Assembly: GCA_963971405.1 (NCBI GenBank)
Contig: OZ020485.1
Location: 48,791,469-48,855,468 of the forward strand
Direction: 5' to 3'
Source of the DNA: Psococerastis gibbosa
Taxonomy: Eukaryota; Arthropoda; Insecta; Psocodea; Psocidae
DNA length: 64,000 nucleotides
Part shown: piece by piece, positions 19,218-57,688 of the stretch
Layout of the letters: each line of letters opens with the position of its first letter
Numbering within the stretch: the stretch's first letter is position 1
Made by a program: the position numbers and the translations under genes
The notes under the pieces: model-generated
Told to the model about the DNA's origin: nothing
The model's database searches: none
What the model saw: only the letters and a program-made list of their open reading frames with translations

Positions 19218-20919
19218 GATATCATGACAGTGTGGTGACATAGTGAACTGTTTTGGAACAACCCTCCGCACTTACTGGTTATTGTAATCGGGATTAATTG
19301 TTGTTTAGGCTGTTGTGGTTGTGATAAAAATTGACCTTTGAGGCTCTGACCAGCAGTCATGAATATTTACATGGCAATCTTGCATATAGCCTACCTCAGG
19401 GGCGCCCCGCTAAGCAAGGATCAAGGTCAGTTGCCCCACCCCCTTCACCTACCTAGCGCTGTCCTAGAATAATATACTCAACCGATGATGCTCCATCAAC
19501 GCGGCTATACCGCACAGAATTAATTTTGTTGGCATGCTTCTTTGACTGCTGAAGGTATCAGGATTGACACTCTATATATATATATATATTTTTTAAATAC
19601 CCGTGTAATATAATATTATCGACACAATATTAGCATAATATTGAAATTTTACGTACCGTACTTAAGTATTGATTTGTCTATAGCTTTGCTTTCCTCTTTA
19701 CAAATTAATCATTTATTAGCTGTCAGGTTTATATTGCGGGCAATCCGTAATGGAAGGGACGTAACAACGGATATTTTCCAGGAGGGGCAAGACCAGGGAC
19801 GGATTCACCCCATTTTTGGAGGGAGGGGGTAGTTAGGGGTCAAAATAGAAGAAACATATGTACCTAGGTAGTATATAGTAGTAAGTAGTATATAGTAGTA
19901 ATAAGAGCGTAATAAATTAACTTACAATAGATTTACTAAATTTGGAGGGGCAGTTACCCCCCCCCCCCCGCCCCCCTTGTACATCACATTATTAGTGACG
20001 TAACTAAAACAGGGGGGTTGGTGGACTCCCCCGTGGGAATTTTCTGCAAAAATAGGCCCGAGTGGGAGCATTTTACCAGCAGTAAAATTAGAGAGTTTAC
20101 AGACCAAAACTTATTCAAGTCGCGCCGAAAGGCAGGGCCGGATTTTGTTTTGAAAAAAATTGGTGCAAAGTAGTGGGGGTAAGAAAAAAACAAGGGAAAA
20201 TATGTTGTCTAACAGGAGCAACCAAATTTTTCTTGCAAGTACTGTACTTTAAAGCTTAGTTTAAATTTTATAACAAAGCCACGTTTTATTTACGGTATTT
20301 TATGCTTATCGGGGGGATGGCAATTGGTTTCCAAGGGGGCAATGACATTGACATCACTATTCTACTTTAATATCGTTGGCAAGGTCCAAGATGAAAGGCC
20401 CTTCATTTGGCAGCAAAAGGAGATAAGTCCCATTCTGCCGTGCTAAGCTAAAACACCCTAACCCAGCCTATGTTCCGCTATTCGATCCAATAAATATGCG
20501 TATAAGAAAAATTGGAAAGTACAATGCCTAAATTCAGATTCAAGTCGTATCCTTCAATATAAATATTCCATATATTACATTGATAAAATAAATATTGAAT
20601 CGAATAAATATTAGTAGAAAGTGCAATCTGTGGGCCTACTATGGCGATTATTTTTAAACTTATGGTATTAAAAATGTAAACAAGATAATTTTACAATAGA
20701 AAGTGCTATTCAAAAGATAAGATAAGATACTGTTTATTTCAAAGGTATTCGAAGAATACATAGAAATCGTTGTGTACAATATAAATAATACAAAATAATC
20801 ACTATAGTCTACAAAATAATGAGGCACCGTGAAAATGGTTTTGTTTACATTTTTAACCCCAGGAATAAGTCAATACTAAACGGCATAGTAAAATTCCTGT
20901 TGAGACTTGTGGCCATTGG

Positions 20920-22920: not shown

Positions 22921-25900
22921 CTGTAACAAGGAAATTAATATATGTGACGCTGTCTAGATTTTTGAGCTCTCTGAATGAACTACAGCATTGGTACGAAGGG
23001 GGAACATGCGTTACTGTAGAATGTATAATAGTATTTCCGCCCTTTCATTGCACTTACCGGTTCCAGCGTCAGCCTAAACTCATGGAGAGTCTCGTTGGGC
23101 GACAGTCCGTCCACCTTTTCCAGGTAGCTAGGATCAGCCAGGTAGAAGTGGGGGAAGGAGACGAACACTGGGGCGCCATCCCGGCACCGGGACAGGTTGC
23201 GGGCTCCGGTTGGGACGCATTCGCCTTCGCAGAAACAGGCGCGGTCCGTCAGGTTGGCACCGTTGTCGAACATGGACTCGTCGCCAACGTACTGCCGACC
23301 ATTCAGGCCTTGTACTCTGGTGATGTCCTTGAACTTGAGTGTTAGCGTACTGAAACAAAAAGGGCAATAAAACCGGGTCAGAGAGTACAAACTAAGTAGG
23401 CAGCACTGCAATGACTTTTACATAGGACAAACTGGGAGGTATACTAAGGATCGTGTCAAAAAACATAACATGGAAGCTGGAATAAGGGACTGTTAATCTG
23501 ACTTCGTCAAACACCTGTCCTAGAATAATTTCTAAATTCGATATTCTGCAGCCCGAAACGAGGATGAACCCCCTTTCATATAAACAATTGAGACAGGGGA
23601 AACCCATACTGACCGCCAGGAGAAGGACTCCAGAGTTAACACCAGGAATGCGATGAGTAATAGATACAAAAATATATAAATATAGATAATAATTGATAAA
23701 TAAACAACTCACCTGCACACATCAGTAATAAACAATTGGAATTCATCGCCATTGTTTGGGGGGAAAATTTCTCCAGCCGATCCACTGACCATGGCACATT
23801 CATCTTGGAAGAACTTGGTTTGAGATTTATTATTCCACAGCACCATATTTCCAATGTCCGTAAGCTCATTGCTACCTAAAAATCAATGGATAACATGTGT
23901 TAGAAAGAGTTATGTACTTCACACATCATAATCAGCTGCAATTACCCGGGTTATTATTATTATTATTATATTTATTCAGTCCCATAAACATTACATAGTG
24001 ATACATAGGTATTGCCACAGGCCAAGGCCGTGCGTGGCTAGTTAAAGGGATGTTAGTCAAGCTTAAAAATAAAGTTAGTTAAAAAAAAAAAAAAAATTAA
24101 AATTAATTAAAGATTACGTTAGGTTAGTTGCTTATTTTCTAAAAGTTCACAGTGCACTCAATAAAATTGTCCTTGATGCTGATTAGTTTAATATTGAAAA
24201 GAATTGAAATAAGTAAATGAATGAATGGAATCTTATTGGAAGGGGAGGGAGGGGGAGTTGAAAATTACATATTCTTAAAAGAGATTCAAGTGCTGGGAAG
24301 CTTTGGTTATAAATACTCGTAGGCTTTTACCATCCTTCAAGTTTCTGGGCAGATCATTATAGATAGAGAGTGCCTTGTATTGCGCTGTATTTTTAGTTTT
24401 ACTTGTTCTTGGTTTTTCGTGCAGTAGGGGTTTTCTCTCTTTATATCTTGTGCCATGTTCGTGGGAGACTTCGGGATGCAGGCCTAAAAGCTTATTTTTG
24501 TATAACTGTATTAGAGATTGTTTGGTAAATATTTTATTGATGGTTGGGACTTTGGCAATATGAAAAAGCTCTTCAGTGGGGAATAATTTAGGCTTTTTGT
24601 ACATAATTTTAAGGATTTTCTTTTGAATTTTAATTAGCCGTTCAAGTTCATTTTTATATGAAGCCCCCCATGCTATAATCCCATATTGTAAGTGTGACTG
24701 TATTAAAGCAAAGTATATGGCTCTCAGTAAGTGTTCATCAACTATATTCCTAACTTGGACGAATTTGTAAATAGATTTTCTAAGTTTCAATATGAGGGTA
24801 TTAATTTGTTCCTGCCAGTTTAGTTTTTTGTCTATTATCAAACCAAGATATTTTGCGCTATCTACTCTTTGGATTCCCTCAATTCGGTAGTTGTCAGTTT
24901 GTAGAATGGTTTGTGAATTAGTGAACTCTATATAATACGTTTTTTTTTAAGTTTAGAGTAAGTAAATTGTCATTCATCCATGATTTTACAATTTTCAGAT
25001 CATTGTTTGCAGACTCATATAGCTCGGTTCTTGTGGAGCCTCTGCATATTAGTATCGTATCATCCGCAAATGCATTTATTTTGCTACTTAGTTTTAAGGT
25101 TAATAAATAATTTAAGATTAAATTGAAGCAAAATGGTCCAAGTACCGTGCCTTGGGGTATGCCACACGTAACGGTATCTTCATCGCTAAAACAAATGCAT
25201 TTGTCAGAACTAGGTAACGTTTTTGTTTTTTGTTTTCGATTAGTCAGGTAACTGGTTAGCAAAGTGTGGACTTGCCCTCTGAGCCCTAGTTTCTCCATTT
25301 TTTTAAGTAGTATACTGTGGGAAATAGTGTCAAAACCTTTTTTTAAGTCATTTAGGATGCAAAGACTGTATTGTTTCTTGTTAGAAATATCACTTAATTC
25401 ATTTATTAGGTCACATATTGCTTCCGTTGTTCCCTTGTTTTTTTGGAATCCAAATTGCTGGGAAGAAATAAGCTTATGTTTTTCGGCAAAATCGCTTAGT
25501 CTGGTATATAGGACTTTTTCATAGATTTTACTGATAGCAGGTAGTACTGATATTGGCCTATAGTTTGCAGGGTCATCTGGGCTATTGTCCTTGAATATTG
25601 GAGTGACTATTGCTAGCTTTAGGCTATCGGGAAACGTACAGGTCGACAAAGATGCATTGATGGCATGAGTTAACGGTTCCGCTATATGGGGTTTGACGGA
25701 CTTAAGGGTATAGTTTGTAATATTGTCATGACCGGGGGCAGAATAATTTTTTAAGTTCGATATTATTGTACTTATTTCTTGTGGGGTTGTAGGGGTTAGG
25801 AACAGTGTATATGGATTAGATGGGATTGCTGCTAGGCGAATGTTCAGACTTGCTGGGTCATGGGGTATTTCACGGACAAGGTTCGCGCCTACTTTTAAAA

Positions 25901-28900
25901 AGTATTCGTTAAATGCTTTGGAAGAGATGTTAGTTTCTTTAATGTTTTGTTTCTTCGTACCTCCAGTTATTTCATTTACTATTTCCCATTTTTTTCTCAA
26001 ATTATGTCCTGCATCGTGTAATTTGTTTTGGTAATATGTGGACTTTATTATTTTAATTTGCGTTTTAACTTGGGCCGAGAATGATTTAGCATTAGATTTT
26101 AATATGAGGTCATGGGGTCGTTTCTTACTATTTTTATGCAATTTATCACGATGTCGTATTGCTTCAACGATTTCAGTTGTTATCCATGGTTTCAACTTTT
26201 TTGTTTTGTTGTTGGGCCTAACTTCGAACTGCTTAGTATTATTTTGTATTTGTTTCTTGAAGATATGTAAGAAATTGTTGTATGTTGCATTGCCGTCGTT
26301 ATTTAAATATACACTATCCCATGTTTCCTGTTCTAAGGACCGATTTAAGGCATTATAATCAATTTTATTTATTTTTAACTTGCACCCTAACTTATTTTCA
26401 ATTTTTGAATAGTGGGAAGGCATGGGTATAGTGGTCAGTTATTGATGTTTGAATAACAAAGGATTGTATGTCGGTGGTGGAATAGTTTTCAGGGATATAA
26501 AAATGGTCAATGCATGATTGACTTACATCGGTAACTCTGGTGTAGTTATTTATACACTGGACGTAGCCATGGCCGCTAAGCATATTTTGATATTCATCCC
26601 CCTCTTTGTCTAACACGTCGATGTTTATGTCTCCTGCTAAAATAGGGCCTAGTCCTAATTGATTTTTGCGCATATGTAAGCACATGTCAAGATCATTAAT
26701 AAAATTTTCTGTATTTTTAATAGAGGGTGTTCTGTAGATGCCCAGAACTGACAGGGACTTCGCCCCCTTTTGGGGTTTCAATTCAAGTAATAGTGAAGTG
26801 CATTCTGTTATTTTAATATCAACTACTGAGGCTTTGTGGGTGGATTTACAAAATATTACGACCCCCTCATTGCGTGTTAGAGAACCACCCTTAGCGAAGA
26901 AGTCATACCCATCTAGGCTGAAGGCAGGGCTAATTTCATTTATAAAAGCTTCAGTTAACACAATTATATCAATCACGACAGGTAGGCTCTGCAGAAAAAT
27001 AAGAAATTCATCCAAATTGTGACTAATGGATCGTATGTTCATATGGAGTATGTACAGATTTCCATTTTTTATTATATTTCGGGATAGTTGGCGACAATTT
27101 TCAATGACTATTGAGTTTATTTGGTTTATATTTAATATCTCATCGTCCTCATCATGCATCATTTTATGATATAGTTCAAGGTTAAAGGTGTTTATTCATT
27201 TATTTATTTCAATTTTTCCAGATCATCTAGACAATTAATTTTTATTACATTGCAATTTTCTGATTTTCTGACCAATACTGCGTCCTTCCACCACACAAAC
27301 TTATAAGACATGTCCTTAGCTTTTTGTTTCGTTTCCCATAGTAGGTTGCGGTAAAATGGGCAGAGGTTCTCTCCGACGTATATTTTCCCTCCATTGTTGG
27401 CACCGGTGATTTCCTTGTTTGTAATTGTTTGATTTTTTGCGCTTAGTAGCTGGTCCCTTGTCTTTCTGCTCGTCAGTCGGGCGATGATAGGGGGTATTTT
27501 CCCCGGGGCCGCCTTGAGTCGATGGGCTGCTTCGATGCCATTGCTGGTTAGGGGTACATTTAGTTGTTGCGCTACTTTAAGTACGATATTTTCTACATTT
27601 TCTCCTGCGGTATGTTTCACTTCCCTGATTTCTATATTTTGTTTTCTACTATACTGCTCGAGATGGAGAAGCCTGCTATGCATTTGAAATATCTGGTTGT
27701 TGTGTCTCTCTTTCTCAGCTTCTAGTTTTGTTATCTTCGATTCCAAGTTCGTAATCTCGCTTAGTTTCTTATGAAGTTCATCATATTTATCTGAGAGGAA
27801 GGAGTAGCTTTTTTCCAGATCCATTAGTTTTTTACTGGTCTCGTCATGGTTTCTTTGCATGTCTTTTCTTATTAGTTGAAATAACTGGTACACTTTGCCC
27901 GCAGTCACGTTTTCCAAATCTTCTTCGTTATTCTCTCTTCTATCTTTATCGTCATTCTCAGAGTCCCCAACGGTTGTTCCAGAAGCTTCGCGGCACCGTG
28001 CGCACTTCCATTCTGCTTTTCTCTGTTTACGGTACTTTTTCCAAGCTGTCTCCTGGATGGAGCAATCAAAGTGATATATTCCCTTACACGCCACGCAGGT
28101 TGGACAGTCCTCCTCCCTAACCAGTTCCTTGCACCTTGAGCAATTCATTTTGCAAACAAATCACTAAGAATCGTGTTAGAAACAGGTGTACAGGATAGCT
28201 CAAGTGTCAAAACCAGCTGGTCAGAAGGAAAAGCAACTTGTCTAAGTTTATGTGCTGCACTGTGCTAAGTGTAAGAAGAAGGCGACTTACAGTGCGTCCT
28301 AATTGTATTGAAGTGGTCTTCTTATGCTGCGCACGACTTGTTTGAATCTGTCAAACTCAGCTGATTACCGAAATATCTCAATTTTCACAACTGTTTTTTA
28401 CTTTTAACTATAGTTCCAAATTAGTAATCACAAAATCACACCGTATATCGGTAAAGGAAACTACACGGAACACTTTGGAGAAATTTCGAACAGAAACTTT
28501 AACTTTTACTGCTAAAAATAAAATAAAATCGGGAGCTAATAGGTAACACGTCTAGTCTATGTATATACTTCTACTTATATTCATGGTGGTATGCATGAGC
28601 CTCCTCAACTCACTCCTGTCTCTCCACTTCTGAGTATTCAGTCCCACTCTTTTGAGTATTCAGTATCTCTTCCTTGTTCTTCCTCTATTTCTTCCTCATC
28701 ATCATAACTATCATTAATTCTCAGCTCCCATTGCCTCCACCACTCTCACCTGTCTCTCCACTTCCTCTTAGTCAACACTACCTCTGGTACCAGTCCCACT
28801 CTTCTGAGATAGTCCTCAATCTGTTGCTAGTATCTCTTGGTTGGTCTTCCTCTTTTTCATGTTCCCCCTATCTCTTCCTCATCATCATAACTATCATCAA

Positions 28901-31900: not shown

Positions 31901-34900
31901 TGTCTTGTGCGTGAGAGTATTATTATTAAAAGGGCTTTAGGCGGGTATTCCACATACGTCAATCGTCAATGAAAAATTGAAAAATGACGTAACAATGACG
32001 TAAATTGACGTGTTAGCAGAATTTTTAGTATGTCTTTAATGTCTGCTAAAACGTCATTTTTCAATTTTTCATTGACGATTGACGTATATGGAATACCCGC
32101 TTTACATGAATGTATTGGCCTATTGAACTTAGCGACTTCATCGGTTTTTCTACCATTATTTGTATTCATTACCAACGAGTTGTTCGATTGTCTCCTTAGG
32201 GGACATGATAGGTAGAAAATGAGAACCCCAAAATTTGTTGTTTTTATTGACTTTTTATTTTTTTATTTAATTAACAAAGCAAGTCATTAAAAATTTGGCT
32301 CATGGAAGTTGTAAAAGACTATTATGCATCATATAATAGGAAATATTACATTTTTGGTACCTTAGTTCTTTCATAAATACCAGACAGGACTAAAATTTCG
32401 CGTATTCTGGGATTTTTGGAAGAACTACAAACCCGAAAAGTTAAAATGCCCGATTATATTGTGCACGAAGTAGTATTTTACACCAAATTTTTAATAACTT
32501 GCTGAGTTAATTAAATAAAAAATGAAAAGTATTTAATTTTGGGTTACCAATTTTCTAAGCAGCATATCCTCTTAACTTATTTTAATAAACATTATTAGCT
32601 GTTTGCATACCGATTGGTAGAAGTGTCTAAACATGTGGTGTGGTGGTACGGACTTCAATAAATAAATAAATATTGACTTTTTTTGTCCTATTACTAAGGC
32701 AACCTAGCTGAGTTAGGGCAATAAAGCCCTTTCTTACACTCAACTACGAAGGCCCGGGACCGCCTGCTTTACATGCCCTCCGAAGCATGGCCACAAAATG
32801 TAGCAAGTGTGAGACTCGAACCAACAACATTTCGGGTGAAAGTCGGAGTCTGTACTACTACTCTACATGTCGAATTCAACCGGACGGTTGTTGGTTATAT
32901 TGTAGTATTATATGGTATATATAACACTGACATTAAATTAACTTTGGTTGAAGAGGTAACTTCCTCATTATAACAGAAATTAGAGGATATGGGAAAAACC
33001 GGGCTTAGCGGGATTCGAACCCACGATCTACGCCTAACTGGGGCGTCGTCTTAACCACTGGACCACAAGCACAAGTGGTCCAGCAGTTAAGACGACGCCC
33101 CGGTTAGGCGTAGATCGTGGGTTCGAATCCCGCCAAGCCCGGTTTTTTCATATCCTCTAATTTCTCTTTTACGGCTTGGATGTACATGGTACCATCCAAG
33201 ATCCAAGAGTGGTGTGGGGCTTTCGTCACAAATTTAAATTCACTTGTAGTTACCCAAAAATGCATTATTAGAACAATAGTCAGATAACCTAAGACTTGGC
33301 CATCATTCGCACTCTTTCTGACTCTCAGTTTATTTCCGCTGTGGCACTTGTTCTTATCCAAGACATTGCGAATTTTATACTCCATCAGCGGCGACATGGT
33401 ACAGAAACCCTGACAACCCTGGCCCAATCACTGGAATAATTGAACACCTTGTAGTGCCTAGAGCATACATAAGATCTTTCACCAAATCTTAACAATATAT
33501 AGCACCAAAATTATTTAACGTAGCCTACTAGATATTTGTCCTGGGTCTCTGTCAATAAATACATTTTCCAAATTAATCCGGGAAAGGCTGAAGAGGTGGA
33601 ATCTTTATTTGAAATAGTGGACTAGACTTAGACTGTTGTGTGTGTATATGAGATATGATATTAATATCAAAGTTTAGTTTATAATAGTATACATAATAGG
33701 GCCTAGTATGTGCAATTTTATTTTATTTTTGTTAATTAGGACAGGAAAAATTGTTATAAGTCTACTTAGGGCGGCCTCTCAATTATCGTGTATTAATTGT
33801 TTTATATTTCAATACACGTTTCATTCATTCACTCATTCATGTAACTGCATGAGATCCCAGGCCATCCTAGTTGAGTGTAAGAGAGGACTTCATACATTTA
33901 TCTAACTCCAATAGGGTGGTTCAGCAGCAACACTACCGTGACAAGTTATAAGGCCGAAAATCCACCGTTTTCGAAATTAGTTATTAGTCATTTCCGGGTC
34001 CGGATAACACACCTTTTCATGGCATCAGAAAACCCTAAATTATCCATTAATCATATAAAATATCATGCATTTCATATTGGCCCTAACTACATTAGGGCGT
34101 TCCTCACTAGATAAGTTTTCTTCGTTTCACTTTTTCTTAGGTACAAATGAATGAAACTCCATTTAAAAACATTCATAATTTGGTAAGAAAGCAAAACTAT
34201 GCAATTTACTGCACTGCAAGTAGAAAGTATTTAAGAAACAAGGAAGTGTTGATATCCCTTCCCACTCCAACAGCCGTATCATTAGTCAATGTGATAAACT
34301 CAAGTAGGCTACTCTCTAAGCTTACCACAAATAGATATTACAGCATATACAGGGAGATAAAAACTTTTATTCGGTGATTTCCTGCACTTTTCTGAATATG
34401 CAATTATTGATACAACAATGCAACACTTATGTATGCCATGAAATATTTCATTTAGTAGGGTCTGTGATGTCTACATAGATTTCATCCGAGCTCTCAAGAG
34501 CCGGGAGGGACCTCTGGACTTCCCGTGAACTAAAGTGGCTTATTACTGTATGTAACAAGCTTCCAGACTATAGAAGTTGAAGAAGTGAAGGTGGGAATAT
34601 TATTTGCATGCTTTTGAGTGACCGATCCTAATAAGACCTTATATTTAACAGCAGGGGAAAAAACACTTACCAAAGCTATGACATCAAAGTTTGTAATAGT
34701 GGTATTGAGAGGCACAGAACCGTCAGCAACATAAGTCCAATTTCTTGTTTGATTATAAGACACACTGCCGTCATCATTCCACGTTACATTCACACGGTCA
34801 TGAACTTCACGAAAAATAAATGGCCCCACTTCTTCCACAGAAAGTTTCACGCTGTGATTTTTTGCAAATTCTTGAGCATTCGTTACATTAAATAAATAAA

Positions 34901-35087
34901 TGTCGAGATACATTGGGAGAGGGGTTTCAACCCACATGCCATAGGATTTTGATCCACGCTTTAAGACAAGATTTTCACGCATTATATCAGTGAATATAAA
35001 CGGAAAGGCGATTGCTAGGCTTCCGATTACAATAACGAGAAATAAACTTATTCCGTAGAATATGCGATCCGACTTGTTGAATTCCAT
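22597..35087 (-). CDS. CD36/LIMP-2 family scavenger receptor, gene B
   Basis: Five coding exons: 35087-34671, 30293-30026, 23875-23713, 23349-23058, 22920-22597. All have GT/AG borders and phases 0,1,2,0, and they join to 1464 nt (487 residues), close to the usual family length. Shown by the N-terminal anchor (about residues 9-32), VEEVGPFIFREVHDRV, FPDKFGFFYQRN, GSAGEIFPP, GRQYVGDE, CFCEGEC, CRDGAPVFVSFPHFYLADPS and a C-terminal anchor. The tail KTKKEAEDKEVLVDDEDIDN is acidic and lacks a strict dileucine signal, so surface location is as likely as lysosomal. Introns 1 and 2 are swollen by mobile DNA. Intron 4 (137 bp) contains a decayed copy of part of exon 5. Which branch of the family this belongs to was not determined. 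Confidence 0.93.
22965..23045 (-). pseudogene. Vestigial copy of exon 5 segment in gene B intron 4
   Basis: In the same frame that would read through the exon 4 donor, the intron encodes YYYTFYSNACSPFVPML, a TAG stop (22982-22980), then FIQRAQKSR. Exon 5 has HYTFYNNVAPAFVPMLWFNQ then RAQITR at the matching place. DNA identity is also clear ('CAGCATTGGTACGAAGG' in both). The Trp codon has become TAG and no acceptor precedes it. If intron 4 were retained the protein would end after 25 extra residues (405 in all) without the C-terminal anchor. Confidence 0.8.
23058..23349 (-). CDS. Gene B exon 4
   Basis: 292 nt. Acceptor TTTGTTTCAG. Encodes TLTLKFKDITRVQGLNGRQY, the cluster CFCEGEC, CRDGAPVFVSFPHFYLADPS and KVDGLSPN, ending LTLEP before donor GTAAGT. 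Confidence 0.93.
23402..23650 (+). pseudogene. Penelope-like GIY-YIG remnant in gene B intron 3
   Basis: Plus strand, antisense to gene B, reads HCNDFYIGQTGRYTKDRVKK, HNMEAGIRDC, a stop, then SDFVKHLS. This is the GIY-YIG endonuclease start of a Penelope-like element (compare CNAIYIGQTGRSFKTRVREH at 55.7-57.6 kb). Several stops follow; only this domain remains. It fills most of the 363-bp intron 3 (23350-23712). Confidence 0.8.
23713..23875 (-). CDS. Gene B exon 3
   Basis: 163 nt. Acceptor TTTTTAG, then SNELTDIGNMVLWNNKSQT, DECAMVSGSAGEIFPP and LFITDVC, with donor GTGAGT. Two of the conserved cysteines are here. Confidence 0.92.
24275..24950 (-). CDS. LINE ORF2, C-terminal part after frameshift
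   Basis: Begins in the frame reached after the A9 run (TYYIEFTNSQTILQ ... AKYLGLIIDKKLNWQEQINT). Continues with FALIQSHLQYGIIAWGASYK, IQKKILKIMYKKP, TKQSLIQLYKNKLLGLHPEV and a basic tail. This is the thumb and C-terminal region typical of jockey/CR1-like elements. Stop at 24275. Confidence 0.85.
24918..26423 (-). CDS. LINE ORF2, reverse transcriptase part
   Basis: 501 residues in one frame. RT motifs in order: IVTPIFKDNSPDDPANYRPI, QFGFQKNKGTTEAICDLI, the motif A region (SLCILNDLKKGFDTISHSIL, where the first Asp is displaced to N-D), GIPQGTVLGPFCFNLILN (motif B) and the catalytic FADD (about residues 452-455) in NAFADDTILICRG. The frame ends shortly after LNLKK at an A9 run (about 24940-24948). 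Shifting by one base there restores similarity in the following segment. Confidence 0.88.
   Translation of the reverse strand: MPSHYSKIENKLGCKLKINKIDYNALNRSLEQETWDSVYLNNDGNATYNNFLHIFKKQIQNNTKQFEVRPNNKTKKLKPWITTEIVEAIRHRDKLHKNSKKRPHDLILKSNAKSFSAQVKTQIKIIKSTYYQNKLHDAGHNLRKKWEIVNEITGGTKKQNIKETNISSKAFNEYFLKVGANLVREIPHDPASLNIRLAAIPSNPYTLFLTPTTPQEISTIISNLKNYSAPGHDNITNYTLKSVKPHIAEPLTHAINASLSTCTFPDSLKLAIVTPIFKDNSPDDPANYRPISVLPAISKIYEKVLYTRLSDFAEKHKLISSQQFGFQKNKGTTEAICDLINELSDISNKKQYSLCILNDLKKGFDTISHSILLKKMEKLGLRGQVHTLLTSYLTNRKQKTKTLPSSDKCICFSDEDTVTCGIPQGTVLGPFCFNLILNYLLTLKLSSKINAFADDTILICRGSTRTELYESANNDLKIVKSWMNDNLLTLNLKKNVLYRVH
26398..27162 (-). CDS. LINE ORF2, endonuclease part
   Basis: 254 residues of an apurinic-type (EEP fold) endonuclease. 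Blocks seen: LYILHMNIRSISHN, IVLTEAF, EGVVIFCKS, VLGIYRTPS, LAGDINIDVLD, CIDHFYIP and SITDHYTHAFPLF. The Asn, Glu, Asp-x-Asn and Asp-His catalytic positions of the fold are all represented. It makes the target-site nick that primes reverse transcription. The frame ends at TGA just after FKN, and the RT frame takes over across an overlap of 26 nt. An indel in the A5 run of 'TTCAAAAATTG' explains the break. Confidence 0.88.
   Translation of the reverse strand: MMHDEDDEILNINQINSIVIENCRQLSRNIIKNGNLYILHMNIRSISHNLDEFLIFLQSLPVVIDIIVLTEAFINEISPAFSLDGYDFFAKGGSLTRNEGVVIFCKSTHKASVVDIKITECTSLLLELKPQKGAKSLSVLGIYRTPSIKNTENFINDLDMCLHMRKNQLGLGPILAGDINIDVLDKEGDEYQNMLSGHGYVQCINNYTRVTDVSQSCIDHFYIPENYSTTDIQSFVIQTSITDHYTHAFPLFKN
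27204..28148 (-). CDS. LINE ORF1: PHD-like finger, coiled coil, RNA-binding type domain
   Basis: 314 residues, intact. Residues 3-52 hold a Cys4-His-Cys3 pattern (C3, C6, C18, C21, H26, C29, C49, C52), the spacing of a PHD-like zinc finger. A charged stretch then leads to a heptad-like region (about 75-160: LFQLIRKDMQRNHDETSKKL onward). After that come LEQYSRKQNIEIREV and EAAHRLKAAPGKIPPIIARL, resembling the nucleic-acid-binding C-terminal part of LINE ORF1 proteins. Expected role: binding LINE RNA and forming the ribonucleoprotein. It is not a host chromatin gene, since ORF2 follows 41 bp downstream on the same strand. Confidence 0.88.
   Translation of the reverse strand: MNCSRCKELVREEDCPTCVACKGIYHFDCSIQETAWKKYRKQRKAEWKCARCREASGTTVGDSENDDKDRRENNEEDLENVTAGKVYQLFQLIRKDMQRNHDETSKKLMDLEKSYSFLSDKYDELHKKLSEITNLESKITKLEAEKERHNNQIFQMHSRLLHLEQYSRKQNIEIREVKHTAGENVENIVLKVAQQLNVPLTSNGIEAAHRLKAAPGKIPPIIARLTSRKTRDQLLSAKNQTITNKEITGANNGGKIYVGENLCPFYRNLLWETKQKAKDMSYKFVWWKDAVLVRKSENCNVIKINCLDDLEKLK
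28600..29010 (-). pseudogene. Tandemly duplicated LINE RT tail
   Basis: The minus strand gives DQIKDYLKRVGLVPEEVLTT then KKWRHR (about 29010-28930), and again QIEDYLRRVGLVPEVVLTKR then KWRDR (about 28830-28745). A third, weaker unit may lie near 28650. The units are about 185 bp apart and share 'CATCATCATAACTATCAT' on the plus strand. It is a decayed 3' piece of a LINE that has been duplicated locally, with a C16 run between units (28924-28939). 29011-29639 holds nothing else that I recognise. Confidence 0.6.
29640..29760 (-). repeat. R-A terminal fragment
   Basis: 'AAAACGTGTAAATCCACTGA', 'CCGAAAATGTCCACC' and 'ACAAAGCTTTCCTTACACT' match the terminal block of R-A, diverged. Confidence 0.6.
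29818..29930 (+). repeat. R-B fragment below gene B exon 2
   Basis: 'GTTGAATCCAGCGGACCAGA', 'CAGATAACTTGGTCGTGTGC' and 'GTAGGGAAACATGGTAGGAC' match the start of R-B. The same block recurs at 30383 on the other side of exon 2, in the same orientation. Confidence 0.75.
30026..30293 (-). CDS. Gene B exon 2
   Basis: 268 nt. Acceptor CTTGACCAG, then GAAHMTRHSLQ, KPAEEWLFKGMDLPLLRLAD and FPDKFGFFYQRNMSAAYDGR, ending DVLT plus one base before donor GTATTG. It lacks the 88-codon insertion of gene A. Confidence 0.93.
30360..30620 (+). repeat. R-B copy above gene B exon 2
   Basis: About 260 bp from 'GGCGGATTCAGCCGGCCGCC' through 'CACAGTGCCGGTAGGGAAAC' and 'TCCACTATAATCAGGAGGTC' to 'TACTAAGGCGGATTC'. 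'AAGGCGGATTC' at both edges (30359 and 30605) may be a terminal or target duplication. 30621-31072 is AT-rich without features. Confidence 0.7.
31073..31339. mobile_element. Poly-G TIR element
   Basis: Left CAGGGGCGGATTTGG and right AAAATACGCCACTG are inverted ends. G9 lies at about 31153. 'GCGGATATAGGCATT' occurs near both ends (31098 and 31292), so the subterminal part is directly repeated. Non-coding. Confidence 0.6.
31594..31730. mobile_element. Perfect 58-bp hairpin element, copy 1
   Basis: Arms 31594-31651 and 31673-31730 are perfect inverted copies (58 bp, no mismatch by eye) around a 21-nt loop (31652-31672, ATTTTTAGTATGTCTTTAAT plus G). The outer end is GCCCATTCCACATACGTACA. The loop and the stem next to it (AGCAGA/TCTGCT) are identical in the element 290 bp further on. 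It looks like a palindromic MITE. In gene B pre-mRNA it would fold into a long dsRNA hairpin. Confidence 0.85.
31941..32100. mobile_element. Related hairpin element, copy 2
   Basis: Arms start GCGGGTATTCCACATACGTC on the left and GCGGGTATTCCATATACGTC (reverse complement) on the right. About 50 bp pair with one mismatch. The left arm has about 20 extra bases (AACAATGACGTAAATTGACG) before the common AGCAGA-loop-TCTGCT core. The loop (32021-32041) is identical to copy 1, while most of the stem differs. Confidence 0.82.
32197..32580. mobile_element. R-D palindromic element, complete copy
   Basis: The left end GGGGACATGATAGGTAGAAA and the reverse complement of the right end GAGGATATGCTGCTTAGAAA pair. 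Pairing continues imperfectly over most of the about 380 bp ('AACAAAGCAAGTCATTAAAA' with 'TTTTTAATAACTTGCTGAGT'). The centre is 'GGGATTTTTGGAAGAAC'. Partial relatives lie at 6156 and 13590. Confidence 0.7.
32660..32872 (-). mobile_element. SINE-1 copy
   Basis: Reverse-strand copy: (TAAA)n tail near 32660, 'GCCCGGGACCGCCTGCTTTA', 'CATGCCCTCCGAAGCATGGC', then a degenerate B box and head 'GGGTGAAAGTCGGAGTCTGT'. In gene B intron 1, same orientation as the gene. Confidence 0.8.
32902..33003 (+). repeat. Repeat unit shared with 46276-46388
   Basis: 'TTGTAGTATTATATGGTATA' to 'GATATGGGAAAAACCGGGCT' recurs almost unchanged at 46276-46388, where it stops where the tRNA-like part would begin. The repeat therefore has a tRNA-like head and a conserved body. 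Confidence 0.7.
32975..33165. repeat. Head-to-head inverted tRNA-like sequences
   Basis: About 91-bp arms (32975-33066, 33075-33165) with an 8-nt centre. Each arm contains a tRNA-like unit: GTGGTCCAGTGGTTAAGACG (A-box and D-arm), an anticodon stem ACGCC/GGCGT around a 7-nt loop, and T-arm GTGGGTTCGAATCCCGC. The 3' acceptor strand is CAAGCCC. The matching 5' GGGCTTG is cut short at the junction of the two units. The loop has C where U33 is expected, so these are not functional tRNA genes but probably the heads of an inverted tRNA-derived repeat. Flanks AGAAATTAGAGGATATG are also inverted copies. Confidence 0.7.
33848..33935 (+). repeat. SINE-1 3' fragment
   Basis: 'CATCCTAGTTGAGTGTAAGA' and 'CTAACTCCAATAGGGTGG' match the 3' domain of SINE-1 without head or central block. 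Confidence 0.6.
34671..35087 (-). CDS. Gene B exon 1
   Basis: 139 codons from MEFNKSDRIF to TNFDVIAL, with donor GTAAGT at 34670-34665. Several N-glycosylation sequons (FNVT, VNVT, YNQT, RNWT, LNTT). No upstream in-frame Met competes closely. Confidence 0.93.
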
Positions 35088-42300: not shown

Positions 42301-42405
42301 CTAGGTTACTTGCTTACTAGGCAACACCCACTCTTGGCAGGGTAGCCATTTGGTGACGCTCTGACCAGTACTAAGCGAGATGTCCTCACGAAGTCGTTGT
42401 GCTCC

Positions 42406-42661
42406 GTCGGTAGGTCGAGTTTTAGAGCTGGAGAGTTAGGTACTGGTAGGTGGGCAACGTCCATCTTTGGTTCGTCGCATTGGGGGGACGCTTCTGATAA
42501 AACTGATAAAAAGACCCCAATGAGGTGCAGATGGTCGGTAGGTCGAGTTTTAGAGCTGGAGAGTTAGGTACTGGTAGGTGGGCAACGTCCATCTTTGGTT
42601 CGTCGCATTGGGGGGACGCTTCTGATAAAACTGATAAAAAGACCCCAATGAGGTGCAGATG
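42406..42661. repeat. Two tandem 128-bp units
   Basis: 'GTCGGTAGGTCGAGTTTTAG' at 42406 and again at 42534, with nearly identical sequence through 'CCAATGAGGTGCAGATG'. The short frames in this block change frame between units (128 is not a multiple of three), so it is not translated as a repeat protein. Confidence 0.85.
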
Positions 42662-42771
42662 AGTGGTGATGGAGTCGTGACGAATGCTGCGACACCCTTG
42701 GTAGTGTCCTGGCATTGGGTTGTTGATCAATCCTTGTGAGAGTTTCCTTGGTGACTTCGTGGAACTTGGAG

Positions 42772-42869
42772 AACATCATGAGTAGAGGAAGAAGAACGCA
42801 ATGATCCACCATCCATCCAAAGTATTTTACTGTGGATCATTGCGTTCTTCTTCCTCTACTCATGATGTT
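42772..42869. repeat. Perfect 38-bp palindrome
   Basis: Arms 42772-42809 and 42832-42869 are perfect inverted copies (AACATCATGAGTAGAGGAAG ... GATCCAC) around a 22-nt centre. No related copy elsewhere in the window. Confidence 0.85.
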
Positions 42870-42974
42870 GTTGATCAGACTAGCGCAGCATCTCCCTGAG
42901 CTAATTCGTGATAATTACGCTTTTGACCAGGCTGATCGCTGACTTGGCGGATGTCAATGATTGAGCAGACTGGT

Positions 42975-43372
42975 TAAGGGCAAACCGGAGTCGCCAATAT
43001 TCCATTTCTGTGCAAACTTTAATTTCTCATTAAATATGGAACGCAGAACAATGAAAAAATGCTGAATGGAAAGAAGAAGGTTTTCTCCTAATTTCGATAC
43101 ATAGTATGTTGCAATCATCAATACCGATCGGCTATAGTTAGTGAACTTGATACGCAAAAAATAACGGTCACTCAGGAGTTCAAGCTGAAGGAGTTCATCA
43201 ACTGTGGCGTATTGGGGTTAGTTAAGGCCACATACTATGCATCAAAATTAGGAGAAAAATGTTTTTCTTTCCATTCAGCATTTTTTCATTGTTCTGCGTT
43301 CCATATTTCATGAGAAATTGAAGTTTGAACAGAAAATGGAATATCGGTGACTCCGGTTTGCCCTTAATGAAG
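42975..43372. mobile_element. Foldback insertion beside the RNase H remnant
   Basis: 'GGCAAACCGGAGTCGCCAAT' and 'GAACGCAGAACAATGAAAAA' (left, 42979-43110) pair with 'CATTGTTCTGCGTTCCATAT' and 'GACTCCGGTTTGCCC' (right, 43225-43372). The centre (43111-43224) resembles 52230-52310 ('AAGGAGTTCATCAACTG', 'GTTAGTTAAGGCC'). It seems to interrupt the end of the RNase H reading frame, which stops making sense at about 43372. Confidence 0.65.
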
Positions 43373-45340
43373 TCTTGTGCCCAGTTTTGCAAGTTCATCA
43401 GCTTTCTCGTTTCTGTTGATCTCGACGTGGCTTGTGATCCATTGTAATGTGCCACCCGGTCTCAATGAGCATGGATAGTCTTGACCGATAGAGGAGTGTT
43501 TTAGTGCAGCCTGTAGCTTTGTTGGTGGCAAGATCGCATATTACTGACTGGCAATCGACCAGGAAGAGTATATTCGGTTTTGTGGTCTGGTGATATAAGT
43601 TGGCGGCTGCTTCGCATATGGCCGCAATCTCTCCATCGTCAGGAATCCATCGTAATGTGCCACCCGGTCTCTATGAGCATGGATAGTCTTGACCGACAGA
43701 GGAGTGTTTTAGTGCAGCCTGTAGCTTTATTGGTGGCAAGATCGCATATTACTGACTGGCAATCGACCAGGAAGAGTACATTCGGTTTTGTGGTCTGGTG
43801 ATATAAGTTGGCGGCTGCTTCGCATATGGCCGCAATCTCTCTATCGTCAGGAATCCATCATAATGTGCCACCCGGTCTCTATGAGCATGGATAGTCTTGA
43901 CCGACAGAGGAGTGTTTTAGTGCAGCCTGTAGCTTTGTTGGTGGCAAGATCGCATATTACTGACTGGCAATCGACCAGGAAGAGTACCTTCGGTTTTGTG
44001 GTCTGGTAATATAAGTTGGCGGCTGCTTCGCATATGGCCGCAATCTCTCCATCGTCAGGAATCCATCGTAATGTGCCACCCGGTCTCTATGAGCATGGAT
44101 AGTCTTGACCGACAGAGGAGTGTTTTAGTGCAGCCTGTAGCTTTGTTGGTGGCAAGATCGCATATTACTGACTGGCAATCGACCAGGAAGAGTACATTCG
44201 GTTTTGTGGTCTGGTGATATAAGTTGGCGGCTGCTTCGCATATGGCCGCAATCTCTCCATCGTCAGGAATCCATCATAATGTGCCACCCGGTCTCTATGA
44301 GCATGGATAGTCTTGACCGACAGAGGAGTGTTTTAGTGCAGCCTGTAGCTTTATTGGTGGCAAGATCGCATATTACTGACTGGCAATCGACCAGGAAGAG
44401 TACATTCGGTTTTGCGGTCTGGTGATATAAGTTGGCGGCTGCTTCGCATATGGCCGCAATCTCTCCATCGTCAGGAATCCATCGTAATGTGCCACCCGGT
44501 CTCTATGAGCATGGATAGTCTTGACCGACAGAGGAGTGTTTTAGTGCAGCCTGTAGCTTTGTTGGTGGCAAGATCGCATATTACTGACTGGCAATCGACC
44601 AGGAAGAGTACATTCGGTTTTGTGGTCTGGTGATATAAGTTGGCGGCTGCTTCGCATATGGCCGCAATCTCTCCATCGTCAGGAATCCATCGTAATGTGC
44701 CACCCGGTCTCTATGAGCATGGATAGTCTTGACCGACAGAGGAGTGTTTTAGTGCAGCCTGTAGCTTTGTTGGTGGCAAGATCGCATATTACTGACTGGC
44801 AATCGACCAGGAAGAGTACATTCGGTTTTGTGGTCTGGTGATATAAGTTGGCGGCTGCTTCGCATATGGCCGCAATCTCTCCATCGTCAGGAATCCATCG
44901 TAATGTGCCACCCGGTCTCTATGAGCATGGATAGTCTTGACCGACAGAGGAGTGTTTTAGTGCAGCCTGTAGCTTTGTTGGTGGCAAGATCGCATATTAC
45001 TGACTGGCAATCGACCAGGAAGAGTACATTCGGTTTTGTGGTCTGGTGATATAAGTTGGCGGCTGCTTCGCATATGGCCGCAATCTCTCCATCGTCAGGA
45101 ATCCATCGTAGATGCTCAGTTGGATGTCAGTTGAGATGTACGTGGCTCCTATATGTTTCCGAGCCTGGCATTGAGGCTCCGGCGCAGTATATAGGTACTC
45201 AGTTGCCGGATATGTTGTATGGATGGATTGTTTCTAGCGCGGATTTTCTCAAGGCTACATCAGTAGAATGGTTTTTCGGGAGATTATGGCTAATTAGGTA
45301 TAGTTGGGTGGTTAATAGCGAATGTACGACTTCCCATTAG
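43373..45340 (-). pseudogene. LINE RNase H domain remnant hosting a tandem array
   Basis: Read on the minus strand. The N-terminal side (about 45340-45111) gives MPGSETYRSHVHLN and an STDIQLSIYDG-like block. The array units read DDGEIAAICEAAANLYHQTT, KPNVLFLVDCQSVICDLATN and SRLSMLIETG. The C-terminal side (about 43460-43375) gives TLQWITSHVEINRNEKADEL then AKLG. These are the successive blocks of a retrotransposon RNase H: EI.AI with the catalytic Glu, VDCQSVI with a catalytic Asp, and W..SHV...NEKADELAK with the last Asp. Several frame changes make it non-functional. Confidence 0.8.
43444..45110. repeat. 208-bp tandem array, about 8 units
   Basis: Near-identical units repeat every 208 bp (landmark 'TTTGTGGTCTGGTGATATAA' at about 43577, 43785, 43993, 44201, 44409, 44617, 44825, 45033). 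Unit differences are single bases only. Each unit is a slice of the RNase H coding region on the minus strand. 208 is 69 codons plus one base: the extra base is in GACCGGGTGGCAC, where removing one G would give ETGGTLRWIP in frame. The short motif ACGATGG is present at both ends of the unit, which fits a duplication started at microhomology. Confidence 0.95.
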
Positions 45341-45360
45341 GTTAATTAATGAGGCGTTAG

Positions 45361-49700: not shown

Positions 49701-50329
49701 TTTACGGAAGGTCAATCAAATAAATCAATCAATCAAAAGGTGTATTAGAAAATACAAATACACAATACTGTAGGGCCAGATGGCCCATAACAGACTAAAA
49801 AATAAATAAATAAATAATTTAAAAACAAAATATTAAACCCTCGAAAAAACGACTAACATTAACTTACGTGCTAATAACAGGTCCACAGAAAAAATTCTTT
49901 CTAATCCATAATTTGAAACAAAGATTCCACCTCTTCCCGTCCAATCAGCCATTCCTATGCTTTCCAACTTCAAGTATGTTTTAGGTGTTATCGTTTTAAA
50001 TAGAGTAACAATACCGAACAGGTTGGTTTTGAATAAAAAATTGTTTTCTGTCATTATTACTGTGTTGTAATATATTGGTCTGCCCATTCTAGACCTTGCA
50101 ATCGTCCCATCGACCAATTTGTGATAAGGAAGGTCGAGTCAACAAAACTTTAACCCTATAACAATTATTTACCATAGAACTATTCGTAGCATCTATCTCG
50201 GTACCTACAATTATTGATAAATAAGATAGTATGTGCGGGTTTACTCGTACCTTTTTCCTCTTCGATCGTCTCGTAAAAAAAGGGAAACCAATTAGCCACG
50301 ATTTTGGAAATACTTCCTCAAGACAACCA

Positions 50330-50822
50330 TACCAATCATTTCTTCTACAAATCAAATTCATTAATTGTGACCAATCTGTGCTAAAAGAGGTAAATGAAAA
50401 TTATCAGGAAAATTTCTGCTGTTTTTCTTGATATTTTTGACAGCCCTACGATTGATATTTCATGAGATATTTCATTTTTATACTTATATAACCACACCAA
50501 TGGTTTCTTCTACAATTCAAATTCATTAATTGTGACCAATCTGTGCTACAAAGAGGTAAATGAAAATGCTCAGAAAAATGTCTACTGTTTTTCCTGATAT
50601 TTTTGACAGCCCTACGATTAATAGTTCATGACATATTTCATTTTTATACTAATAACCACACCAATCATTTCTTCTACAAATCAAATTCATTAATTGTGAC
50701 CAATCTGTGCTACAAAGAGGTAAATGTAAATGCTCAGAAAAATGTCTACTGTTTTTCCTGATATTTTTAACAGCCCTACGATTAATAGTTCATGAAATAT
50801 TTCATTTTTATACTTATAACAT
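50330..50822 (+). repeat. Three tandem units of about 164 bp
   Basis: Units start at about 50332, 50497 and 50661 with 'CCAATCATTTCTTCTACAAA' or a close variant. Each contains 'TAATTGTGACCAATCTGTGC' and 'CAGCCCTACGATTAATAG'. High identity. No long frame. Confidence 0.85.
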
Positions 50823-55470: not shown

Positions 55471-57688
55471 TAAACAAAAAATAACAAAAACTTAGAGTTT
55501 TAGAAAAACTTGTTATAACAACCCGAGTAAAACCCAAATAATCGTTAAGAAATTAACTTTGTCTAAGAAACCCACTTGTGTTAGTATAAAACCCTGAGCG
55601 CTTTCGGCAAGAACTGCCATCTACAGAGGGAAACCCACTAGCACAGTTACACCTTATCTGCGATTTGAGACTTGCTCAACTCGAGGAGAAGATGCAAATG
55701 TGACTAGAGAGAGGAAACCTTGGTTTATATAGGACTGGGAGCGGGGGGAGGAGGGGGTGGAAGGGGGCGTGGCTGGTTACCTATTCCTAACCTACTAGCT
55801 AGATCTATTAGAGGGGATGATTGTGTGAATGTTATGTCGTTTGTTAATTTTTCCCTCTTGTGTAAAGCTCTTTTGATTTCAACATTTTCAAAAAAATTTA
55901 AAGTGTAACTTTTCTTCATTTTGTGTAGGGCTGTCCAATTGTTAGGATCGAATGTGTGATTTTCCGAGTTAAGGTGTTTCGCGAATGTGCTGTTGGTGTT
56001 GGTGTCTCCTATACCTGCTATATGTTCTCTGACCCTAGTTTTAAAGCTTCTGCCTGTTTGGCCTATGTAAATTGCGTTACAATCGTTACAATTTAGACGA
56101 TAAACTCCATTGCCTTTTTCCTTTTCTGGTTTGGTTTTGCAGTTCATGAGTTTATTGGCCAAATTGTTGCGGTTGTACGGGGCTGGTGTTTTGTCTGTTG
56201 TAGAAGAAATGAGGTTACTTATTTTTTCTGTGATTTTTTCTATGTATTGTATCCTGAAATATGATTTATTGGTTACCTGGTTTAATCTCTCTGGGGGGTA
56301 AATTAGTTTGAGGTTGTGTTTGATTTTGTGATGTCGTAGGATTCTGTCTATTAGGTTGAGATTGAAATTGTTATTTTGGGCAATTTGTTTTATTGTATTT
56401 AATTCATTATTATAGTTGGTTTCATTCATAGGGATGTTAAGGAGTCGAAAAATCATACTATGGAATGCTGCGTGTTTGTGCTGGAATGGGTGAGAAGAAT
56501 CAACAGGGATTATATTATCGCTATGGGTTTCTTTACGAAATATCTTGAAGTCTAGGGTACTATTATTTTTGGTGATGGTGAGGTCTAAGAAGTTCAGGGA
56601 GTTGTTTTCTTCTACTTCCATGGTAAATTGGATTTTTGGGTGAATTGTGTTGATAAAACTTAAGAAATTCTCTAGTTGTCTGTTACTTCCTGTCCAAATG
56701 CAGAAGATATCATCCACATACCTTGTCCAGAAAGATATACATTTAACTAGGGGATTTTTATTGAGTAGAAGTTTGTGTTCGAAGTTATCCATAAAAATTT
56801 CCGCAAGAAGGGGAGAAAGGGAAGAACCCATAGGTAGGCCTATTTTTTGTTGGTAGTAGTCGGATTCGAAACGGAAATAGTTTTGATGAGTGCATGTGTC
56901 TAACAGAAGGAGGGTCTCAGAAATAAGGCTGTTCGAGGTATTATTGTGATAGAGTGACTGGGCAACTAATTTACGTACTTCGGGTACGGGAATATTAGTA
57001 AACAGATTTTTGACATCGAAAGAGACGAGTTTGGCATTGCTGGATAAGGAAAGGTGCTTAAGGCGGGAAATCAACTCGAATGAGTTTTTGACGCTGTGGC
57101 GGGGTGTGAAGTTTGATAGCTCGCGAATGTGTTTGTTGAGAAAACTAGCTACTTTGCTGGCTGGGGCACTGTTATACGAAACTACTGGGCGGATAGGTTG
57201 ATTGGGTTTATGAAGTTTAACCAGACCAAAAAATGAAGGAGCTACGGGGTTCATGTTGGTAAATTTATAGGCTATATCTTGGGGTATCGTATTAGAGCTT
57301 TGTTTAATGGCTTTTTTGGTTGCTTTTTGGAATTTGTTTGTGGGGTCTACTTTAAGTTTTACGAATGTGGATTCATCAGAAATGAGGTCTAAGACTTTAG
57401 AAACATAATCACGGGTAGGTAAAATGACAATAGAATTTCCTTTATCCGCCTTGGTGAGTGTAAGGTTATCTTGGGCTAGTTTCTTTTTTATAAATTTAGT
57501 GTTATCGTTTTTGTGTGTAAGTTTGACGTTTTTCAGAATATCTGCTGCTATGTGTTTTTCATTATTAACGATTATTTGGGTTTTACTAATTCGGGTTGTT
57601 ATAACAAGTTTTTCTAAAACTCTAAGTTTTTGTTATTTTTTGTTTATTAAAATGAAATACCACGAAGTCACGAGTAATCTCATTATTT
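55471..57688 (-). mobile_element. Penelope-like element (PLE), 5'-truncated
   Basis: 2218 bp flanked by a perfect 11-bp target duplication ATCTACTATGA (55460-55470, 57689-57699). One long minus-strand frame encodes RT plus GIY-YIG. About 80 bp at the two ends are inverted copies of each other (55471-55547 and 57566-57646; TAAACAAAAAATAACAAAAA ... AATAATCGTTA), differing by a 4-base indel. So the 5' end sequence, which is partly coding, has been copied in inverse orientation at the 3' end. PLE copies with inverted or tandem partial ends are known from the Penelope group. Confidence 0.92.
55725..57632 (-). CDS. PLE reverse transcriptase with GIY-YIG endonuclease
   Basis: The frame is open from 57632 to the stop at 55725 (635 codons). 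No start codon survives at its beginning, and the first Met is at 57254. Order: LTKADKGNSIVILPTRDYVS, PSFFGLVKLHKPNQPIRPVV, motif A LVSFDVKNLFTNIPV, motif B GLPMGSSLSPLLAEIFMDNF, motif C FWTRYVDDIFCIW (catalytic Asp pair), then NSLNFLDLTI. After a linker with CNDC comes the GIY-YIG nuclease (NAIYIGQTGRSFKTRVREHI ... AKHLNSENH). The C-terminus is proline-rich. All RT motifs are intact; only the N-terminal portion is missing. The product would copy RNA and cut the target. Confidence 0.93.
   Translation of the reverse strand, partial: QKLRVLEKLVITTRISKTQIIVNNEKHIAADILKNVKLTHKNDNTKFIKKKLAQDNLTLTKADKGNSIVILPTRDYVSKVLDLISDESTFVKLKVDPTNKFQKATKKAIKQSSNTIPQDIAYKFTNMNPVAPSFFGLVKLHKPNQPIRPVVSYNSAPASKVASFLNKHIRELSNFTPRHSVKNSFELISRLKHLSLSSNAKLVSFDVKNLFTNIPVPEVRKLVAQSLYHNNTSNSLISETLLLLDTCTHQNYFRFESDYYQQKIGLPMGSSLSPLLAEIFMDNFEHKLLLNKNPLVKCISFWTRYVDDIFCIWTGSNRQLENFLSFINTIHPKIQFTMEVEENNSLNFLDLTITKNNSTLDFKIFRKETHSDNIIPVDSSHPFQHKHAAFHSMIFRLLNIPMNETNYNNELNTIKQIAQNNNFNLNLIDRILRHHKIKHNLKLIYPPERLNQVTNKSYFRIQYIEKITEKISNLISSTTDKTPAPYNRNNLANKLMNCKTKPEKEKGNGVYRLNCNDCNAIYIGQTGRSFKTRVREHIAGIGDTNTNSTFAKHLNSENHTFDPNNWTALHKMKKSYTLNFFENVEIKRALHKREKLTNDITFTQSSPLIDLASRLGIGNQPRPLPPPPPPAPSPI

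Follow-up and report, generated by a model that had tools for sequence, protein, structure and literature searches.

An eight-unit tandem array of 208 bp within the RNase H region of an old LINE fragment in Psococerastis gibbosa

Introduction

A 64,000-nucleotide stretch of the genome of Psococerastis gibbosa (contig OZ020485.1, positions 48,791,469 to 48,855,468; hereafter the window) contains a compact tandem array whose units appear to be slices of a transposon's RNase H domain. The locus raises the question of whether such an array is a satellite in the process of being born, as had been proposed from the letters of the sequence without database searches (hereafter the sequence-only reading), or a local duplication within a single dead transposon copy.

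Tandem array and unit comparison

TRF reported a repeat of period 208 with 8.0 copies and 98% matches, with a score of 3264 that is the highest of the 20 TRF rows for the window (the next row scores 855), and a 15-base anchor occurs eight times at a spacing of exactly 208 bases. Upon comparison, four of the eight units were found to equal the consensus, and the remaining four differ from it at 5, 2, 3, and 3 places; pairwise divergence has a mean of 1.5% and a maximum of 3.8%, and there are no length differences between units. The roughly eight near-identical tandem units described from sequence are thereby confirmed, and, given the length and identity of the array, its chance origin is no serious question. 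The coordinates of the array and its surroundings are provided in Table 1.

The identity of half of the units, together with a second, also perfect, duplication of 128 bp nearby, is what would be seen if the assembler had multiplied one or two real units or collapsed a longer array. However, the other four units have private or partly common differences, and the array sits in a 52.6-Mb contig. We consider an assembly artefact very improbable, and the unit number given here is that of the assembly.

Table 1. Features in and around the 208-bp array (window coordinates).
Feature	Position	Strand	Evidence
Old 5′-truncated LINE fragment (RNase H to near 3′ end), holding the array and split by two palindromic insertions	42306..45333	-	blastn pieces at 68-83%, tblastn with the L026 LINE and ORF
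Second tandem duplication, 128 bp x 2, 100% identical, 3′ part of ORF	42406..42661	-	TRF, tblastn
Small hairpin with perfect 38-nt arms (I3), inside the LINE fragment, in a stretch without LINE match	42772..42869		Inverted repeat; pieces at 98.7-100% in L037
LINE fragment resumed past the palindromic element	42867..42973	-	blastn with the L026 LINE, 68% over 123 columns, E 6e-8
Palindromic (foldback) element, 394 bp, TTAA at both ends	42974..43367		Inverted arms, genome copies, LINE homology on both sides
C-terminal-side single-copy flank (ITSHVEINRNEKADELAKLG)	43368..43436	-	Translation, weak Pfam RNase_H match, relatives
Tandem array, 8.0 x 208 bp, RNase H coding slices	43437..45110	-	TRF, unit table, genome search
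N-terminal-side single-copy flank, RNase H region	45111..45333	-	Genome search, alignment with relatives

Parent LINE and RNase H homology

To identify the source of the units, we turned to a dispersed relative of the array (locus L026), which contains three neighbouring ORFs with Pfam matches to Exo_endo_phos_2 (E 1e-10), RVT_1 (E 1e-35), and, in the last ORF, RNase_H (E 6e-13). Judging by the domain content of this one scanned copy, the parent element is a LINE with an endonuclease, a reverse transcriptase, and an RNase H. A tblastn search with the RNase H ORF of L026 retrieved matches in all eight units and in both flanks, and the unit's own 63-aa open stretch is identical to this ORF at 35 of 50 residues (E 6e-23, from a single comparison). 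The proposal that the units are minus-strand slices of LINE RNase H coding sequence is thus borne out. Profile searches agreed in part: the parent ORF is recognised as RNase_H, as given above, but the 63-aa open stretch of the unit retrieved no Pfam family, and for the 24 residues of the C flank the match to RNase_H was weak (E 0.011; 16.4 bits, below the gathering cutoff of 25.8). Because the unit alone has no Pfam match and that of the C flank is weak, the RNase H identity of the array rests on the parent LINE. A search with positions 45111-45360 retrieved, besides that region, 25 further places at 72-88%; together with the translation and the alignment with relatives, the searches uphold the single-copy flanks of the RNase H region that had been placed on both sides of the array.

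L026 is matched at 98.6-99.8% by 12 other loci, all from positions 1468-1491 onward, with longest matching pieces of 634 to 3835 bp and some loci matching in several pieces. The parent LINE thus exists as dispersed copies of various lengths with a common 3′ end, 5′ truncation of each short copy being putative. From the close identity of these twelve loci to L026, we conclude that the family has young copies and that the fragment in the window is old. One young copy, at approximately 1546-2179 of locus L034, lies between two tandem-repeat stretches (1008-1541 and 2180-2867, with periods of 187 and 189) and is perhaps an insertion into a tandem array.

Host fragment and palindromic insertions

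Homology to the L026 LINE begins in the window at 45333, where the fragment is 5′-truncated, and runs to 42306, where it stops a few bases before the query end, with a divergence of 17-32% depending on the piece. This extension past the two palindromic insertions, together with the second duplication in it, had escaped the sequence-only reading. A search for a target-site duplication around the fragment found none: the stretches at its two edges share no exact 8- to 14-base word, the fragment being old and its edges approximate. Since the mean divergence of 1.5% among the array units is far lower than that between the fragment and L026, the amplification or homogenisation of the units is much younger than the insertion of the element, consistent with the recent amplification or ongoing homogenisation that the sequence-only reading had suggested. 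The 128-bp unit of the second duplication retrieved at least 41 matches (40 of 54 candidates scored); the two at 100% are the two copies at 42406-42661, and the other 39 are at 73-92%.

The 394-bp palindromic element interrupts the LINE fragment at a distance of 69 bp from the 208-bp array. Its arms (42974-43007 and 43334-43367) are 94% complementary, and TTAA adjoins the terminal inverted repeats at both ends, the arrangement of a piggyBac-like palindromic MITE, for which the element is a candidate. Its family is abundant: among 1124 candidates, of which the best 40 were scored, 39 besides the window's own element are 94-96% identical. Between the start of the perfect hairpin and the 128-bp duplication lie 110 bp.

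The proximity of a palindrome to each of the two duplications raises the possibility that palindromic insertions broke replication forks or DNA ends and so seeded the tandem duplications, an account that could also add to the explanation we favour below. Across 252.5 kb, however, 3 of 16 tandem arrays lie less than 200 bp from a palindrome, versus a random mean of 2.9, and 583 of 1000 random placements reach three arrays near a palindrome; these figures come from a simple purpose-made palindrome finder and a small sample in which two of the 16 arrays, in locus L050, overlap. As there is no excess of arrays near palindromes, a causal link is not favoured: palindromes were rejected as the cause of the tandem arrays, and we regard their seeding role here as very improbable. 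A broader proposal is likewise very doubtful: tandem duplications (208 x 8 and 128 x 2) would arise again and again in this dead LINE copy, a small hotspot perhaps aided by two replication-stalling palindromes, and the locus would display the first steps of satellite formation before any spread.

Genome-wide copy number

If the array were a satellite, further tandem loci of its unit might be expected, and one unit was therefore used as a query against the genome (409 Mb in 68 contigs). The search retrieved at least 47 matches (40 of 42 candidates scored), of which eight are the window array at 97-100% and 39 are dispersed at 72-89%, lying on other contigs or, on the contig designated C2, no closer than about 200 kb. 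No second tandem locus of the 208-bp unit is among the 47 matches listed for this 409-Mb genome. A further search with another unit, 209 bases long and with E values of up to 10 allowed, likewise retrieved at least 47 matches, eight of them in the window array (40 of 43 candidates scored). Dispersed relatives of the unit therefore exist, but further tandem loci do not appear among the matches; within the reach of the search, the 208-bp array is a single tandem locus, blocks missing from the assembly being conceivable.

These results bear on whether a genuine satellite family has been born, with this array as its founder or as one member among many or long arrays. The unit size near 200 bp and the high unit identity fit such a family, as does the head-to-tail arrangement of near-identical units (8.0 copies, 98%), and satellites derived from LINE ORFs have already been published, as listed in a 2022 review (PMC9659126). 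Neither long arrays nor many loci, however, are found among the 47 matches listed: with either query the window array, 1.7 kb and eight units long, is the sole tandem locus, these counts being lower bounds and long satellite blocks being possibly absent from the assembly. The term satellite, as applied in the sequence-only reading, is accordingly not sustained, and we think it very unlikely that the array belongs to such a family.

Reading frame

Each unit had been said to shift frame because of an extra G at GACCGGGTGGCAC. At this position, GGGT is found in 10 of the 10 relatives with letters there (13 were aligned, L041, L042, and L048 having none), although the ten are not independent, L026, L055, and L024 being near-identical young copies. 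The G is therefore no insertion, and this account of the frame shift was rejected. Instead, the array is without five bases after GGCACAT that are retained in 9 of the same 10 relatives; the exception, L037, is also without them. The five-base loss breaks the reading frame of the array; as L037 shares it, it may be a mark not of the window locus but of a subfamily. It is present in both of the edge units that were aligned, and for this reason, and because the units have no length differences, it predates the amplification. The claim that the frame damage is older than the amplification therefore holds, though for a reason other than the one first given.

The spacing of the array's edge motifs was also measured in the relatives. 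Both motifs were found in five of the six relatives tested, at distances of 202, 202, 202, 196, and 193 bp, each of which is 1 mod 3, so a duplication at these breakpoints shifts the frame even in an undamaged element.

Array edges and origin of the duplication

Read in LINE sense, the N edge of the array is ...CATCTACGATGGATTCCTGACGATGGAGAG, an inner junction ...CACATTACGATGGATTCCTGACGATGGAGAG, and the C edge ...CACATTACAATGGATCACAAGCC. A near-repeat, TAC(G/A)ATGGAT, is present at both array edges, and would fit seeding by short homology. ACGATGG had been reported at both junction ends; short near-homology is indeed found at both edges, but the C-side copy is ACAATGG.

We conclude that the array very probably began as a recent tandem duplication, local to one old, dead, 5′-truncated LINE copy, of approximately 208 bp in the RNase H region, and that this duplication expanded to eight units. 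For the seeding step and the subsequent growth we infer the following course. A switch of template during replication, or an error of end joining, would probably have connected the ends at the short near-repeat, which reads TACGATGG at the N side and TACAATGG at the C side; the resulting two tandem copies would then have grown to eight through unequal crossing-over or slippage, by which the inner units would also have been kept alike. In support of this, the copies of the edge near-repeat are 193-202 bp apart in five of the six relatives tested. The unit adjoining the C flank differs most from the consensus (5 places), and four of the other seven are identical to it, as unequal exchange predicts. 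Two variants are common to non-neighbouring units, and either exchange or repeated mutation could produce them. No function of the 208-bp array is evident.

The junction itself is less simple, in that 14 additional bp (ACGATGG-ATTCCTG-ACGATGG) lie there. Joining two sites does not by itself account for this insert, which calls for either a templated insertion or a subsequent exchange at the N edge. The ATTCC within the insert is similar to what relatives have on their C side, where TACGATGGATTCC scores 11 of 13 in 6 of 8 relatives and 9 in L046, the score of L026 being left out of account because its stretch was one base short. Owing to this resemblance, a templated insertion is likely. Matches of the N-edge 17-mer to relatives are uneven, at 14 of 17 in L032, 13 in L026 and L055, 12 in L041, and 9 in L031 and L042. 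In controls, for which the random windows were taken from loci that hold the LINE itself, TACGATGGATTCC reached 11 in 12 of 5000 windows, and the N-edge 17-mer reached 13 in 5 of 2000 and 14 in none. We would like to note that several observations count against a local duplication followed by expansion, namely the 14-bp junction insert, the unevenness of the N-edge 17-mer matches, the sharing of the five-base loss by L037, the non-independence of the relatives, and the recurrent variants among units.

Comparison with other tandem repeats

To place the array among other repeats of this genome, TRF was applied to 38 loci outside the window (188,508 bases), 33 of them around matches to the array or its flanks and five around copies of the palindromic element; this sample leans to transposon loci, and L001-L017, L053, and L054 were left out of it. 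It contains 11 arrays of period 40 or more, with 1.9-3.7 copies. When these are joined with the five of the window, the 208-bp array has the most copies of the 16, the other 15 having 1.9-3.7. Eight copies at 98% therefore stand at the top of a small, transposon-leaning sample, in which small tandem duplications are common.

Tandem repeats derived from transposable elements (TEs) are known from other organisms. The 2022 review tabulates the LINE-derived satellites PROsat of Phodopus and Pvc 20 of Phoca, both from LINE-1 ORF2, and the chicken HinfI/SCR1 satellite from CR1, which consists of 3′ UTR and part of ORF2; among the routes to satellites it also considers microhomology-mediated end joining and non-allelic homologous recombination (PMC9659126). 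The same two processes are cited in a 2025 review that speaks of the tandemisation of transposon segments (PMC12628747). Like PROsat, Pvc 20, and HinfI/SCR1 as they are tabulated, the present array has a slice of LINE coding sequence as the monomer of a head-to-tail array; unlike these listed satellite DNAs, it is a single 1.7-kb array of eight units (PMC9659126). The term "RNase H" occurs 0 times in the main text of that review, which accordingly lists no monomer from RNase H (PMC9659126), and a literature search covering titles and the openings of abstracts found no report of an RNase H-derived LINE satellite among the records listed. In Lathyrus, the short arrays within Ogre LTR retrotransposons are regarded as a source from which satellites arise (PMC7004042). 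The present array is similar in being a short tandem array within a retroelement, possibly at a pre-satellite stage; the Ogre arrays, however, are described from many LTR-element copies (PMC7004042), whereas here one dead LINE copy is involved among the 47 matches listed.

The 208-bp array is thus an early and local instance of already published TE-derived tandem repeats, with no spread into a satellite found, and the published picture of satellites growing from TE pieces is left unchanged by it. If confirmed in reads, it would offer a clear snapshot of tandem amplification in a dead retrotransposon for which both flanks and the parent family are available, as well as a locus at which the duplication breakpoints and unit numbers of different individuals could be compared.

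Other features of the window

Several further features of the window were noted. TRF reported a 164-bp x 3 array at 92% (50325-50818), whose unit is a member of an abundant family dispersed in the genome (1873 candidates, of which the best 40 were scored, with matches elsewhere at 76-84%). CD36-family coding stretches lie on the minus strand at 17507-19271 and 34530-35087 and perhaps belong to two neighbouring gene copies, the 208-bp array being located approximately 8 kb upstream of the second. Also on the minus strand, an RVT_1 ORF adjoins a Baculo_FP_2nd ORF at 24918-28148, which is probably another LINE, and an ORF at 55725-57254 has both RVT_1 and GIY-YIG matches and is presumably Penelope-like.
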